Source: Bacteroidaceae bacterium (lineage in GTDB: Bacteria; Bacteroidota; Bacteroidia; Bacteroidales; Barnesiellaceae_A). Taken from it: 53,790 nt of DNA. Under the pieces are notes generated by a model. That model was not told the origin of the DNA, ran no database searches, and saw only the letters and a list, made by a program, of their open reading frames with translations. Location: NCBI GenBank assembly GCA_017555825.1, contig JAFZFQ010000053.1, positions 1-53,790 of the forward strand, written 5' to 3'. Below are positions 1,530-7,120 of the stretch, piece by piece (the stretch's first letter is position 1; each line of letters begins with the position of its first letter). The translations under genes and the position numbers were made by a program.

Positions 1530-2513
1530 TCAGGGGATGTTGCGCAGAAGCGTGTATCGCAAACCAATCTCGATGGCTAACAACAACATAGCAAGTAGCG
1601 CCCAAGGCATATAGGCCTCTTCGCGACGAGAGAATTGTTGCACCGAAAGCTTGGTTTTTTCCATCTTATCGATTTCGGCAAAGACATTTTTGAGCACATT
1701 CTCGTCGGTGGCACGGAAATACTCTCCATCGCCAATCGAAGCAATGCGACGCAACTTATCTTCGTCAATCTCTACAGGCATGCTTTGGTATCGAATACCG
1801 TAAGGAGTCATCACAGGCGATTGCGCCATACCCTTTGTACCCACACCAATGGTGTAGATGCGAATGCCAAAGTTGCGAGCTATCTCGGCAGCCGTAATGG
1901 GGTCTACAACACCGGCGTTGTTGGTACCATCGGTGAGTAGAATGATGGTCTTGGACTTGGCAGGGCCATCTTTGATGCGATTGACCGCTGTAGCCAATCC
2001 ATCGCCCACAGCAGTACCATCTACAAGCATGCCACACTCTACATCTTTGAGCAGATTGAGCAATACAGCGTGGTCGGTAGTCATAGGACACATAGTAAAG
2101 CCTTCGCCGGCAAAAATTACAAAGCCTATATTGTCGTACTCCCGACCGGCAATAAATTGTGCAGCCACGTTCTTGGCAGCTTCCAAGCGGTTGGGCGAAA
2201 AGTCGCGCGACAACATACTACCCGATATGTCGAGAGCAACAACCACGTCGACACCTTCGGTCGACGACTTTTGCCAACTATCGGTAGTCATGGGTCGAGC
2301 CAGCACCACAATGACACAAGCAATGGCCAAGAGTCGCAAGGCAAAAACGACATGGCGCAAATGAGCCTTATAGGTGCGAGGCAACTTATCGAAAGCCTCG
2401 GTCGAAGAGAAATTCATCGCCGCCTGAGCCTTCTTGTGCTTGAGTATATACCACACTATTGCAGGGATGAGCAGTAGCAATAGTAGCAGACACCAAGGAT
2501 TATCGAATATCAT
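1530..2513 (-). CDS. batA: BatA-like von Willebrand factor A membrane protein
   Basis: 327 residues. Transmembrane segments are seen at about 7-23, 55-73 and 303-320, flanking a VWA domain. The MIDAS motif is D95-I-S97-G-S99, followed by a DGTAVGDGLA threonine loop and an LLTDGTNNAG strand/loop, all typical of an intact metal-binding VWA fold. It lies between an uncharacterised membrane gene (43 bases upstream) and batB (32 bases downstream) on the same strand. It resembles BatB closely in layout (two N-terminal and one C-terminal membrane segments), as expected for the paralogous pair. The function is inferred from the family: part of a membrane complex involved in oxidative-stress or aerotolerance physiology, possibly working with the MoxR ATPase encoded first in the operon. 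Confidence 0.9.
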   Translation of the reverse strand: MIFDNPWCLLLLLLLIPAIVWYILKHKKAQAAMNFSSTEAFDKLPRTYKAHLRHVVFALRLLAIACVIVVLARPMTTDSWQKSSTEGVDVVVALDISGSMLSRDFSPNRLEAAKNVAAQFIAGREYDNIGFVIFAGEGFTMCPMTTDHAVLLNLLKDVECGMLVDGTAVGDGLATAVNRIKDGPAKSKTIILLTDGTNNAGVVDPITAAEIARNFGIRIYTIGVGTKGMAQSPVMTPYGIRYQSMPVEIDEDKLRRIASIGDGEYFRATDENVLKNVFAEIDKMEKTKLSVQQFSRREEAYMPWALLAMLLLAIEIGLRYTLLRNIP

Positions 2514-2556
2514 TTTATACTAAACTTTTGAGTTGTGCAGGGAGATACCCCGGTTG

Positions 2557-3537
2557 TTATTTTTCTTCATTCTTCACCGCGCCATCGGTCGAATCATCGA
2601 CTACGGGTTGCGGTCGGGTGAGCTCAACAAAATCGAATGCTTGACGCATTACACGCTCGTTGTCGTCGGGCATGGGGCGCATCTTGGCAAACTTTACAAA
2701 GTCGGCCATGGCAAGTATCTCGTTGAGATATTTGTTTACCTCGCGGGCGTCATTGTTACGACGCAAGGCATCCAATATTTGCGACGAAGTCATCTCCATG
2801 GCATTGATACCAAAACGGCTATCGATATATTGACGCAGGATGTCGACCAATCGTGTATAGTATTGCTTCTCTTGACCTTGTTGCCACAACTTCTTCTCGC
2901 GAAGCTCTTGCAACTCTTGCATAGCCAATTGATAAGGCGGTATGCGCTTGGCAGGAGGCAACACCTCCTCGACTTTGCGATTTCTGAAATGCTTGATTGC
3001 AAAATAGGCTGCAACAGCCAACAGTGCCAAGACTACAATAGTAACTAAAAGCCACACAGGAACAAAGTCCCACAAGACAAAAGGAGGCTTTACAACATCT
3101 TTGATATCCTTGATGTCGGCAACAGTAGCCTCATCGGGCACATCGACCGGTACAATCTTGAGACTAAGCGACTCCGTAGCAAATGTATCCTCATCGAAGA
3201 CATACTTAAAGGGAGGGATGTAGTAGAGACCCGAGTCGAACGATGTAACGAGCACCTCTTGCTTGATGAGCAAGCGATTGTTTTTAAGAATCGTAGTATC
3301 GGGCTCCGAGAGTTCTATCACCTCAACCCCCTTTGTCAACTCACCCGGGGCTTCTATCTGTGGAGGCAAAATCTGCATATCATCGTCTTGAGTGAGCGAG
3401 AGGTGAATGAGTGTCTGCTCACCCATCCACAGCACACTCGAGTCCATCACCGCCTCGACCACAACAGTTTGTTGGGCCCGCACGGCAGATAGCGCCGATA
3501 ATGCCAAGGTTACGATAATCAGAATTATATTTCTCAT
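2557..3537 (-). CDS. Bat-operon single-pass membrane protein of unknown function
   Basis: 326 residues. There is an N-terminal signal peptide (about 1-21, ending SAVRAQ), then a beta-rich periplasmic region of about 130 residues. One transmembrane segment follows (about 155-175, rich in V/L/A), then a cytoplasmic tail of about 145 residues. The tail looks helical: charged, with LQELREKKLW and a DILRQYIDSRFG segment. No enzyme motif is visible. It lies between the DUF58 gene (22 bases upstream) and batA (43 bases downstream), in the position where Bacteroidota Bat operons carry an uncharacterised membrane gene. The periplasmic part is vaguely BatD-like, but the protein is much shorter than BatD. 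I treat it as a conserved operon member without assigning a function. Confidence 0.75.
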   Translation of the reverse strand: MRNIILIIVTLALSALSAVRAQQTVVVEAVMDSSVLWMGEQTLIHLSLTQDDDMQILPPQIEAPGELTKGVEVIELSEPDTTILKNNRLLIKQEVLVTSFDSGLYYIPPFKYVFDEDTFATESLSLKIVPVDVPDEATVADIKDIKDVVKPPFVLWDFVPVWLLVTIVVLALLAVAAYFAIKHFRNRKVEEVLPPAKRIPPYQLAMQELQELREKKLWQQGQEKQYYTRLVDILRQYIDSRFGINAMEMTSSQILDALRRNNDAREVNKYLNEILAMADFVKFAKMRPMPDDNERVMRQAFDFVELTRPQPVVDDSTDGAVKNEEK

Positions 3538-3559
3538 AATAAAAAATACACTTAAATGC

Positions 3560-4429
3560 TTATCCGCGCTTTTTGAACAGATTCATCAACGCAACAACAT
3601 AGTCTTCGTGGGTAGCTACCGATGTAATGTCGACACCATTGCGACGACAAATATCCAAGGCAGCCGCTTGTCGCTTTTGCCACCATTCGGCATAGGCCTT
3701 GCGCACCGAGGCCGACGAGGTATCAATCCACTCCTCTGTACCGCGCTCCACATCGCGCATCTTCATCAAGCCCACATCGGGCAACTCTGTCTCGCGCTTG
3801 TCATATACTTGCAGTGCCACCACGTCGTGCCGACGATTGGCAATGAGCATGGCATCGTTGTATGTGGGAGAAGCAATGAAGTCGGAAATAAGGAAGGCTG
3901 TACAGCGACGCTTGATGACGTTGGTAGCATACTCAAGGGCGAGCTTGAGGTCGGTACCCGTACCCTCGGGCTCGAAACCTATGAGTTCGCGAATGATGTA
4001 AAGGATATGCTTTTTACCCTTCTTTGGAGGGATAAACTTCTCGATTTTGTCGGTAAAGAAAAGCACACCAATCTTATCGTTGTTCTGAATGGCCGAGAAT
4101 GCAAGTGTAGCGGCAATCTCAATCATCATATCGCGCTTCATCACACCCACAGCACCAAAGTTGCGACTTGCCGACATATCGACAAGCAACATAACGGTAA
4201 GTTCGCGCTCTTCCTCAAAGACCTTGATATAGGGCTTGTTGTGACGAGCTGTCACGTTCCAATCTATATCGCGCACATCATCGCCATACTGATACTCACG
4301 CACCTCAGAGAAGGCCATACCACGCCCCTTGAAGGCCGAGTGGTACTGACCCGCAAAGATATTGCGCGAGAGACCGCGCGTCTTAATCTCGATGTGGCGT
4401 ACTTTCTTGAGCAATTCGCTATTTTCCAT
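3560..4429 (-). CDS. DUF58 family protein of the MoxR/Bat operon
   Basis: 289 residues, soluble, with no signal peptide. It contains the DUF58 signature around residues 35-70: an FKGRG segment, then R-x-Y-x-x-GDDVRDIDW, then a conserved FEEERE. Downstream is a degenerate VWA-like fold with D-M-S-A-S in place of a classical MIDAS. DUF58 proteins are nearly always encoded directly after a MoxR-type ATPase and before VWA proteins, as here (38 bases after moxR). They are thought to be partners or substrates of the ATPase. The function itself is unknown. Full length for the family. Confidence 0.9.
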   Translation of the reverse strand: MENSELLKKVRHIEIKTRGLSRNIFAGQYHSAFKGRGMAFSEVREYQYGDDVRDIDWNVTARHNKPYIKVFEEERELTVMLLVDMSASRNFGAVGVMKRDMMIEIAATLAFSAIQNNDKIGVLFFTDKIEKFIPPKKGKKHILYIIRELIGFEPEGTGTDLKLALEYATNVIKRRCTAFLISDFIASPTYNDAMLIANRRHDVVALQVYDKRETELPDVGLMKMRDVERGTEEWIDTSSASVRKAYAEWWQKRQAAALDICRRNGVDITSVATHEDYVVALMNLFKKRG

Positions 4430-4467
4430 ATACTCTACTCAGTATGATTAACGATAGTGTCGATTTA

Positions 4468-5463
4468 TCAGGGCACTTCTACACGGTTGAGAATTTCGCT
4501 TATTATCTCCTCGGCAGTCATGTTGTTGGCCTCGGCCTCATAGCTAAGACCAATGCGGTGACGCAATACATCGTGACACACGGCACGTACGTCTTCAGGG
4601 ATAACATATCCACGCATCTTCAAGAAGGCGTAGGCGCGAGCTGCCAAAGCCAAGTTGATAGAGGCACGAGGCGAAGCACCAAACGAAATCATGTTTTTGA
4701 GGTCGCGCATGCCATACTCCTCGGGGAAGCGAGTAGCAAATACGATGTCGACAATGTAACGCTCGATCTTCTCGTCGATATACACCTTGCGCACAATCTC
4801 GCGAGCCTCGATAATGTCGGCAGGAGTGAGAACGGGGCGCACCTCTTCAAAGAGGTTGTCGATGTTGCGACGAATAATCTCACGTTCCTCCTCTTTCTTG
4901 GGATAGCCAATCACTACCTTGAGCATGAAGCGGTCTACTTGTGCCTCGGGCAAGGGATAGGTACCCTCTTGCTCAATGGGGTTTTGTGTAGCAAGAACAA
5001 GGAAGGGATCGTCGAGCTTGAATGTCTTTTCGCCAATAGTTACTTGACGCTCTTGCATCGCTTCGAGCAAAGCACTTTGCACCTTGGCAGGAGCACGGTT
5101 TATCTCATCGGCCAAGACAAAGTTGGCAAACACAGGACCGCGCTTGATTTGGAATTGCTCTTTCGACTGGCTATATACCATAGTACCCACAACGTCGGCG
5201 GGCAACAAGTCGGGTGTAAACTGTATACGATTGTACTTAGCATCGATAAGCGAAGCCAAGGTTTTGATGGCCAATGTCTTTGCAAGACCGGGAACACCTT
5301 CGAGCAAGATGTGACCGTTTGACAACAAACCAATCAAGAGAGAATCTACCAAGTGTTTTTGACCCACGATGATGCGGTCCATACCCATGGTGATGGTATT
5401 GATAAATGTACTTTTACCGGCTATCAGTTCATTCAACTGTCTGATATCGACTGTTTCACTCAT
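4468..5463 (-). CDS. MoxR-type AAA+ ATPase
   Basis: 331 residues. Walker A is at residues 56-63 (GVPGLAKT), Walker B/sensor at VLADEINRAP around residue 117, followed by a QERQVTIG stretch and the sensor-1 ATQNPIEQEGTYPLPEAQ block typical of MoxR ATPases. The C-terminal lid helices are present. MoxR ATPases act as chaperones that help assemble or activate VWA-containing complexes, and the genes downstream (DUF58, BatA, BatB) fit that. It is the first gene of the minus-strand operon. The promoter-like TACCTTTG element on the minus strand lies about 45 bases upstream of the ATG. Confidence 0.93.
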   Translation of the reverse strand: MSETVDIRQLNELIAGKSTFINTITMGMDRIIVGQKHLVDSLLIGLLSNGHILLEGVPGLAKTLAIKTLASLIDAKYNRIQFTPDLLPADVVGTMVYSQSKEQFQIKRGPVFANFVLADEINRAPAKVQSALLEAMQERQVTIGEKTFKLDDPFLVLATQNPIEQEGTYPLPEAQVDRFMLKVVIGYPKKEEEREIIRRNIDNLFEEVRPVLTPADIIEAREIVRKVYIDEKIERYIVDIVFATRFPEEYGMRDLKNMISFGASPRASINLALAARAYAFLKMRGYVIPEDVRAVCHDVLRHRIGLSYEAEANNMTAEEIISEILNRVEVP

Positions 5464-5506: not shown

Positions 5507-5514
5507 CAAAGGTA
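5507..5514 (-). promoter_or_regulatory. Bacteroidota -7 promoter element for the moxR/bat operon
   Basis: Reads TACCTTTG on the minus strand, a full match to TAnnTTTG, about 44 bases before the moxR start. No clear -33 TTTG was found at the usual spacing. The leader is AT-rich with no Shine-Dalgarno site. Confidence 0.6.
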
Positions 5515-5606: not shown

Positions 5607-6806
5607 CTACCGCTTCATGGCTTGCTTTATGAGGCGAGCCTTTTCCAAAGCAACGTTTATATCGGTGGTATCGTTGGCATCGACACCATATTTTTCGAGA
5701 GGCGGAATGGTTATGACCGTACCCACCGGCACGTTGTCGGGGTTGGAAATGATGTGGCTATTCTCCTCGTAGATATATACCCAGAAAGCCTTGTGACCAT
5801 AGTGCTTGTATGACATATTGGTGAGGAAAACACCGCGACGAATGGTATCGACCACCACGGGGAGAACCTCGGGCTCTGCTACAACAAGCGAGAGGGTGTC
5901 GGACACAATGCTATCGACCACAGCAGTATCTACAGGCGCAACCTCAATGGTATCGCAAGAGAGAGCGGTCGGCTCATTGTGAGCAAAGAGCGAGCCCGCA
6001 TACTCGGGGAGTTGCGACAACGTAGTTCTATAGGTCGGGAAGCATAACAAGAGCAACGCAATGGCAACCACAAATACCACAACCGTAGCTAGCACACCTT
6101 GCCATATACCTTTGACATAGGCCTTAGAGTTGTTATTCGTAGCATCGACTATGGGCGTAGACGTTTCGTCAACGACAGGTGCTGTGGTATCTTCTGCTAT
6201 AACAGGGGCTTGTTCTTCGTCGGCCACAACGGGGTCTGCAGTCGGTTCTTCTACATTCTCGATGGCCTTTTCATCGATTTCTGCGGGAGCAACCTCTTCC
6301 TCTTTTTCGATGAAATGGGGCTGCTCGGCCGGCACTTCTTGCTCAGAAGGCACAGGCGTTGCAGTCTCGGACACAGAGGGTTGTTCTATATTTTTATCTT
6401 CTGTCGCAGGCGCTTCTGCCTCCTCGTCGGCACTATCATCGCCCATTTCATCGACAAGTGGGGCATCGGCAACGATAGGTGCATCATCGGGAAGCTCCTC
6501 GACACAGAAGCAAGCAAACGGCTCATTGATAGCCTCACGCACAGCCTTGGCAGGCGTAAAGGTGAGCTTGTAGTGGCCCGGAATAACGGTAGGCTCGCCT
6601 GTCTGTACATTTACGCTTGCGCGCTCCTCGACCCAGGTAGGCTTGAAAACACCCAAACCATTGATACGAAGCGTCTCGCCCGATGAAATGGTATCGGTCA
6701 TCAGGGTCAAGAGCTCTTTGACAAAATTCTCGGCGATACGTTTGGGACAATTGTGCTTTTGTGCCAAAATATCGACCAACTCCGACATCGTTATCTTCTT
6801 GTTCAT
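5607..6806 (-). CDS. HU-family DNA-binding protein fused to a transmembrane segment and a LysM-like C-terminus
   Basis: 399 residues. Residues 1-95 are an HU/IHF-type fold (MNKKITMSELVDILAQ start, INGLGVFKPT, and a VIPGHYKLTFTPAKAVREAIN tail equivalent). Then comes a Pro/Glu/Val-rich acidic linker of about 130 residues, a single strong transmembrane helix (about 235-255, VLATVVVFVVAIALLLL), a second acidic linker, and a C-terminal domain from about 320. That domain carries YKHYGHKAFWVYIYEEN and VPVGTVITIPP, resembling LysM. The predicted topology puts the DNA-binding part in the cytoplasm and the LysM-like part in the periplasm. It starts 2 bases after the stop of the upstream HU gene, so the two are co-transcribed. 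A DNA-to-envelope tether is an inference. The architecture recurs in Bacteroidales, but I know of no established function. Confidence 0.85.
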   Translation of the reverse strand: MNKKITMSELVDILAQKHNCPKRIAENFVKELLTLMTDTISSGETLRINGLGVFKPTWVEERASVNVQTGEPTVIPGHYKLTFTPAKAVREAINEPFACFCVEELPDDAPIVADAPLVDEMGDDSADEEAEAPATEDKNIEQPSVSETATPVPSEQEVPAEQPHFIEKEEEVAPAEIDEKAIENVEEPTADPVVADEEQAPVIAEDTTAPVVDETSTPIVDATNNNSKAYVKGIWQGVLATVVVFVVAIALLLLCFPTYRTTLSQLPEYAGSLFAHNEPTALSCDTIEVAPVDTAVVDSIVSDTLSLVVAEPEVLPVVVDTIRRGVFLTNMSYKHYGHKAFWVYIYEENSHIISNPDNVPVGTVITIPPLEKYGVDANDTTDINVALEKARLIKQAMKR

Positions 6807-6808
6807 AA

Positions 6809-7090
6809 CTATTTGCGTGCTTTGAGTTGATTTTTAATGGCACTATTGGGCTTAAAGACCAATACGATCTTGGGCGGAATGAGCATACGCTTACCGGTAG
6901 CGGGGTTTACCGACACACGCTCCATCTTCTTGCGAGCCTCGAATGTGCCCAAACCTTGTATCATGATACTATCCATTTGCGAACAGCGTTCGACGATTGT
7001 ACCACAAAAGAGGTCGAGCATAGACTCAACCTCCTCGCGAGTAGTATCGAGGCGTTGTTGCAACTTTTTTACCAAATCTTTATGTTCCAC
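6809..7090 (-). CDS. HU/IHF-family DNA-binding protein, GTG start proposed
   Basis: 93 residues if started at GTG 7090, which gives (M)EHKDLVKKLQQRL, the usual HU opening, and the usual 90-95 residue length. The longer reading from ATG 7156 adds 22 residues that do not look like HU and that contain the promoter element TATCTTTG (7113-7120). Visible HU features are an IQGLGTFEARKK turn, a VNPATGKRMLIPPKIV arm and an FKPNSAIKNQL C-terminus. HU dimers bind and bend DNA in the nucleoid. The stop lies 2 bases before the start of the membrane HU fusion, so the two genes form an operon. The domain call is firm; the GTG start is an inference from length, family alignment and promoter position. Confidence 0.85.
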   Translation of the reverse strand: MEHKDLVKKLQQRLDTTREEVESMLDLFCGTIVERCSQMDSIMIQGLGTFEARKKMERVSVNPATGKRMLIPPKIVLVFKPNSAIKNQLKARK

Positions 7091-7112: not shown

Positions 7113-7120
7113 CAAAGATA
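7113..7120 (-). promoter_or_regulatory. Bacteroidota -7 promoter element for the HU operon
   Basis: TATCTTTG on the minus strand, a full TAnnTTTG match, 22 bases upstream of the proposed GTG start. Transcription should begin a few bases downstream, which would exclude the upstream ATGs at 7156 and 7123. Confidence 0.65.

Follow-up and report, generated by a model that had tools for sequence, protein, structure and literature searches.

A two-gene HU unit of Bacteroidales with a membrane helix and a LysM-fold domain that may link chromosome to cell wall

The two-gene locus and its family

The window analysed here is the whole stretch of 53,790 nucleotides, and the locus under study comprises two adjacent genes on its reverse strand (Table 1). 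The upstream gene encodes a free HU protein, F, and the downstream one a membrane protein, T, formed by an N-terminal HU domain, a single membrane helix between two linkers and a C-terminal LysM-fold domain (HU-TM-LysM). The stop of F lies 2 bases (AA) before the start of T, as described in an earlier note made on the letters of this DNA, which had regarded both genes as co-encoded. The start of F was given as the TTG at coordinate 7156 in a mechanical ORF list; relatives begin at the GTG at 7090, which is thus the likely start.

Table 1. Coordinates of the two-gene locus, of the parts of its products and of neighbouring elements in the window
Feature	Position	Strand	Basis
MoxR-type AAA ATPase that opens a Bat-type MoxR-DUF58 operon (next to the pair, not part of it)	4468..5463	(-)	profile match
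Gene of membrane HU-TM-LysM protein T, 399 aa, ATG start	5607..6806	(-)	ORF; family of 80 named loci
C-terminal extension of T after LysM, begins K-Y-G, helix 380-398	5610..5693	(-)	AF2
LysM-fold domain of T, residues 316-371, invariant FWVYIYEEN	5694..5861	(-)	profiles, AF2, fold search
Predicted periplasmic linker of T, residues 257-315	5862..6038	(-)	low pLDDT
Single transmembrane helix of T, residues 227-256	6039..6128	(-)	hydropathy, AF2 helix 227-255, K/R bias
Acidic, predicted cytoplasmic linker of T, residues 106-226, probably disordered	6129..6491	(-)	net charge, pLDDT about 45-59
Motif NxPFxxFxxxxL right behind the T HU domain, residues 94-105	6492..6527	(-)	conservation in 71 sequences
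T HU domain, residues 5-97; beta-arm present, V for R61 and V for P63	6516..6794	(-)	PF00216, AF2, residue table
Free HU partner F, 93 aa, GTG start; arm VNPATGKR kept	6809..7090	(-)	PF00216 E 7.5e-21; start from relatives
Candidate -7 box TATCTTTG of the Bacteroidetes promoter type, upstream of the two genes; no -33 box stands out	7113..7120	(-)	consensus

The HU domain that the earlier note had placed at the N-terminus of T was identified by profile search as PF00216 at residues 6-94 (E 1.2e-20), a domain matched by all 71 T members. AlphaFold2 gives an HU fold for residues 1-97 with block pLDDT of 84-98, and a fold search with the T model against HU/IHF structures reached a Z of about 11. 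In the motif that follows the fold, N94, F97 and F100 are invariant and P96 and L105 are conserved in at least 90% of the 71 T sequences; this invariant NxPFxxF is perhaps a dimer or partner contact.

An adjacent HU gene, upstream and on the same strand, was identified in 79 of 80 named loci, the eightieth (L109) being a natural F-T fusion. A chance ORF or a chance fusion was ruled out because architecture and gene pair recur in these 79 of 80 loci. The commonest spacing between F and T is a 4-base stop/start overlap, found in 28 of 79 loci. Fusions comprise L109 and L153 (kin, Porphyromonas type), L144 and L145 (one family code) and L159, which amount to about three origins, with three changes on the tree, and the order is always F then T.

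The named relatives belong to Bacteroidaceae-, Barnesiella-, Muribaculaceae-, Prevotellaceae-, Dysgonomonas- and Porphyromonas-type genomes, along with L077, a MAG whose label, Lachnospiraceae, is probably wrong. Among 396 genomes drawn across the class, matches below 1e-18 were identified in 16 of the 19 genomes of the window's own order; outside that order none fell below 1e-18 and only ordinary HU proteins were matched. An even draw over the order identified the family in 27 of 148 genomes at E 1e-20. The window's own genome, roughly 92% complete, contains three PF00216 proteins, two of them being F and T. The third (L179:1495-1767, reverse strand, contig C35) is the only stand-alone PF00216 HU and carries ARNI where RNP is usual. 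In the searchable literature, a scope that leaves out most subscription papers, no description of an HU-LysM protein was found. BT0577, an iron-regulated LysM protein, was considered as a family member and no tie to the HU-TM-LysM family was found.

Pairing of the two HU chains and their DNA-binding features

Evolutionary distances of the T HU domain correlate with those of F at r 0.86 and with those of the LysM domain of the same chain at 0.61. With noise correction and equal column numbers the values are about 1.0 for F and 0.76 for the own LysM, while the noise-corrected value for the neighbouring MoxR is 0.82 (45 linked loci); these correlations are to be read bearing in mind that F and T, having the HU fold in common, may also be alike in their patterns of substitution. 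Because of the gene pairing, the fusions and this co-evolution, the proposal that F and the HU domain of T form an obligate HU heterodimer has strong, though indirect, support, and the suggestion of the earlier note that the free HU would be the dimer partner of T gains from the fusions and the co-evolution alike. Known counterparts are the IHF alpha/beta and HU alpha/beta heterodimers, which also comprise two paralogous HU-fold chains, pairing being predicted in the present case. They differ in that here one of the chains is fixed in the membrane and has lost the residues that intercalate into DNA, and the genes are adjacent or fused.

The two halves are not equally equipped for DNA. The T HU domain of the window has a net charge of +1 and presents V at both R61 and P63, whereas F has a net charge of +7 (F mean +5.9) and P63 is present, with V at R61. 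Among the first 80 T domains the P63 position is V or I wherever the arm exists and never P, and the R61 position is V in nearly all 80. By its residues and charge, the T HU domain of the window departs from an ordinary DNA-bending HU, and in this lineage any contact with DNA would likely come mostly from F.

The arm is absent in 28 of 100 T proteins, corresponding to five changes on the tree. The mean net charge of the T HU domain is -0.4 in the armed forms and -6.1 in the arm-less ones, and in arm-less lineages the partner F usually loses P63 and charge. Where T has the arm (59 loci), F keeps P63 in 56; F without the arm proline accompanies 19 of 28 arm-less T proteins versus 1 of 72 others. 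By sign test the coupling of arm loss in T with proline loss in F runs in one direction throughout, and with 4-5 independent pairs it is not significant. Loss of the arm is the likely direction of change because a canonical GRNPRTG arm is found in the T protein of L149, a distant member identical to the gene L017, although the tree is unrooted for direction and the L149 row sits on a long branch.

Loss of P63 was dropped as proof of lost DNA binding, given that the stand-alone HU of the window's own genome has I at that position, which makes P63 dispensable in this group and not decisive alone. R61 is retained in the ARNI of that protein. More weight therefore falls on the change at R61, on charge and on the arm deletions. 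The arm losses and the parallel proline losses in F nevertheless indicate that DNA binding is not conserved family-wide; it is probably retained in some lineages, including that of the window. The nucleoid-wall tether proposed in the earlier note is a reasonable reading for the window lineage, where F keeps its K/R residues and VNPATG arm, and does not hold as a family-wide function in view of the arm losses.

Membrane helix, topology and LysM-fold domain

The sole hydrophobic segment of T is found at residues 238-256 (Kyte-Doolittle mean 3.24), within the helix that AlphaFold2 gives for 227-255, and both agree with the one membrane helix claimed previously. The stretch between the HU fold and the helix is strongly acidic, residues 97-226 having a net charge of -36. 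In 60 of 71 T members K/R are more numerous before the helix (N-side) than after it (C-side), and one member shows the opposite bias (means 3.1 versus 1.1). By the positive-inside rule, which is a statistical one, this supports an orientation with HU inside and LysM outside, the same arrangement that the earlier note had assumed.

The Foldseek and VIA results for the whole T model were taken up by HU; the LysM domain was hence predicted and searched separately. In the full AlphaFold2 model the C-terminal domain is compact and spans 318-398 (block pLDDT 92-98 from 321), with a beta-alpha-alpha-beta arrangement predicted at 318-367 (block pLDDT about 96-98). When predicted alone, the C-terminal domain presents the same beta-alpha-alpha-beta arrangement followed by two C-terminal helices. 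The best fold match is Kbp, with Z 9.0 over 64 residues at 2.0 A, followed by GINKO1/Kbp (8.2), a baseplate LysM (7.8) and a Thermus NlpC/P60 LysM (6.3). Nearly all the fold matches are LysM, the best Foldseek E values being 0.003 to 0.02.

Profiles point to the same family. Searched by itself, the T sequence aligns with the LysM half of Kbp/YgaU at E 8e-5 (NCBIfam PRK11198), and 64 of 66 relatives match the NCBIfam LysM/Kbp model with scores under its whole-protein cut-off. A profile of the 66 relatives searched against the PDB identified Kbp 7pvc (E 7.5e-10) and, at 0.0024, Ecp6, a LysM effector that binds chitin. Pfam LysM PF01476 was reported, weakly, in 18 of 66 relatives and not in the window sequence. 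The LysM-like C-terminus read in the earlier note is thus supported by Kbp profiles, predicted structure and fold matches, and the comparison of residues 320-399 with LysM, which that note had offered as a check, came out LysM-like with Kbp at the head. Kbp/YgaU is the nearest match of this domain in both sequence and fold; T differs from it in lacking a BON domain and in carrying LysM on a membrane helix, predicted to be periplasmic.

The LysM of T forms a distinct subtype in which F-W-V-Y-I-Y-E-E-N and K-Y do not vary, and in the extension behind it K372, Y373 and A386 are invariant in the 71 sequences. The usual G-D-T loop of LysM is degenerate in the window T (RRGVFLTNM), which makes sugar (glycan) binding by this domain uncertain. 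The relative L147, which also has the HU pair, contains the subtype, as FWVYIYEAN, behind the OmpA wall-binding domain of a beta-barrel outer-membrane protein (2250-3926 in reverse-complement coordinates of the locus) whose N-terminus is signal peptide-like. Occurrence of the same subtype beside OmpA supports a periplasmic role for the LysM of T, where it would most likely bind peptidoglycan. One family member, L157:2201-3589 (+), has a C-terminal LysM too degenerate for the LysM profile of the family.

Proposed function, related systems and alternatives

The conserved core of the family is the predicted HU heterodimer, the membrane and the LysM domain. In the proposed mechanism F would pair with the HU domain of T into an HU/IHF-type heterodimer, which T would fix at the inner membrane through its one helix and long acidic cytoplasmic linker, while projecting the LysM-fold domain into the periplasm, most likely onto peptidoglycan. 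In the window lineage the dimer would probably touch DNA, mainly via the basic arm of F with its intercalating proline (VNPATGKR), the HU domain of T serving chiefly for docking. Several other lineages have lost DNA-binding features from both halves, and there the device probably holds protein, not DNA. The two-gene unit may thus link chromosome to wall, with the DNA-holding parts lost in several lineages. Confidence is roughly even that in the window lineage an HU heterodimer held at the inner membrane, its LysM facing the wall, connects DNA to both membrane and wall. A broader formulation is tentative and rather unlikely to hold in full: a Bacteroidales-specific trans-envelope device, acting beside the CCDC81-SPOR proteins, in which a soluble and a wall-anchored HU half would couple nucleoid to peptidoglycan, and which would have become a DNA-free scaffold in several lineages. 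Little is known about the positioning of the chromosome relative to the envelope in Bacteroidales, which are major gut bacteria. If true, an HU pair devoted to this role and anchored towards the wall would provide a DNA-membrane-wall link open to direct testing, and the DNA arm, lost more than once, a natural experiment in how a nucleoid protein can turn into a scaffold.

The closest known kind are the HU-CCDC81_bac-TM-SPOR proteins of Bacteroidetes, for which Burroughs et al. in 2017 reportedly predicted a role in chromosome partition; HU-CCDC81_bac corresponds to PF18174/PF18175. Both kinds share two HU-type domains, one membrane helix, a wall-binding domain and the phylum. They differ in that the HU domains of F and T are ordinary PF00216 on two genes and that the wall domain is LysM and not SPOR. 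A profile search of the window T gave no match to PF18174/PF18175 and identified PF00216 instead, and SPOR gave no match either, the C-terminal domain having the LysM fold. By its HU type, its LysM and its two genes the HU-TM-LysM family is placed outside the CCDC81-SPOR family. Across the order PF18174 is present in 109 of 148 genomes, and among the 27 listed genomes positive for the HU-TM-LysM family 22 have it, so both families co-occur and do not replace each other. The window's own genome contains one protein of this kind, its second membrane HU protein, on contig C43 (L112:673-1794, reverse strand). Two HU-CCDC81_bac domains in tandem and a single hydrophobic segment are followed there by a C-terminal SPOR match that is weak (E 0.008) and does not reach the Pfam cut-off. 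RodZ, with an N-terminal DNA-binding-type HTH fold that binds MreB, one helix and a non-LysM periplasmic C-terminal domain, resembles T in having a DNA-binding-type fold inside, a single helix and a periplasmic C-terminal domain. It differs in its HTH fold, its non-LysM periplasmic domain and the lack of a paralogous partner gene, and the N-terminal domain of T was identified as HU and not as a RodZ-type HTH.

The main rival, possible if not the probable reading, is that the heterodimer would, by analogy with RodZ and its MreB-binding fold, be a protein scaffold in all lineages, binding a cytoplasmic partner (a cytoskeleton, division or envelope-synthesis factor) and linking it to the wall; a protein-binding role has been proposed for the HU-type module of CCDC81. 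The near-neutral or acidic T HU domains, the arm losses and the matching disappearance of P63 and charge from F, the invariant NxPFxxF motif and the weak matches of 22 of 71 T relatives to PF18175 (HU-CCDC81_bac_2, best 3e-7) all point this way. However, F is strongly basic in most lineages and keeps arm and P63 in the proportion given above, which a pure scaffold would not need, and the canonical arm of L149 lies in T itself. That the LysM-like domain would not be a wall binder at all, having another role as in Kbp or the baseplate LysM with its side cytoplasmic or irrelevant, is very unlikely: its closest folds are indeed the cytoplasmic Kbp and LysM domains of contractile-system baseplates, and its GDT loop is degenerate, but the charge bias of 60 to 1 favours LysM outside and the same subtype adjoins OmpA in L147.

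An improbable alternative, again by analogy, is a membrane-bound regulator in the manner of the ToxR-like one-component regulators, which are membrane-bound and alter transcription; LysM would sense the state of the wall and the HU dimer would alter local transcription, for example of the adjacent Bat operon. It would fit an HU fold at the membrane and a pair located upstream of MoxR(-DUF58), on the same strand and within 460 bp, in 44 of 79 loci. Against it, the pair elsewhere follows ftsY-rimO, proS or unrelated genes, the arm-less forms would be incapable of acting so, and the Bat genes have an apparent -7 box of their own at 5507-5514, by which the operon is probably transcribed apart from the pair. 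With MoxR nearby in those 44 of 79 loci, the family is not restricted to the Bat neighbourhood. The consensus of the Bacteroidetes -7 box is TAnnTTTG; the candidate box upstream of the pair is weak because 33 such octamers are found on the same strand of the window. The Bat-type operon downstream of the pair (2557-5463, reverse strand) comprises MoxR, DUF58 and a further membrane protein gene.
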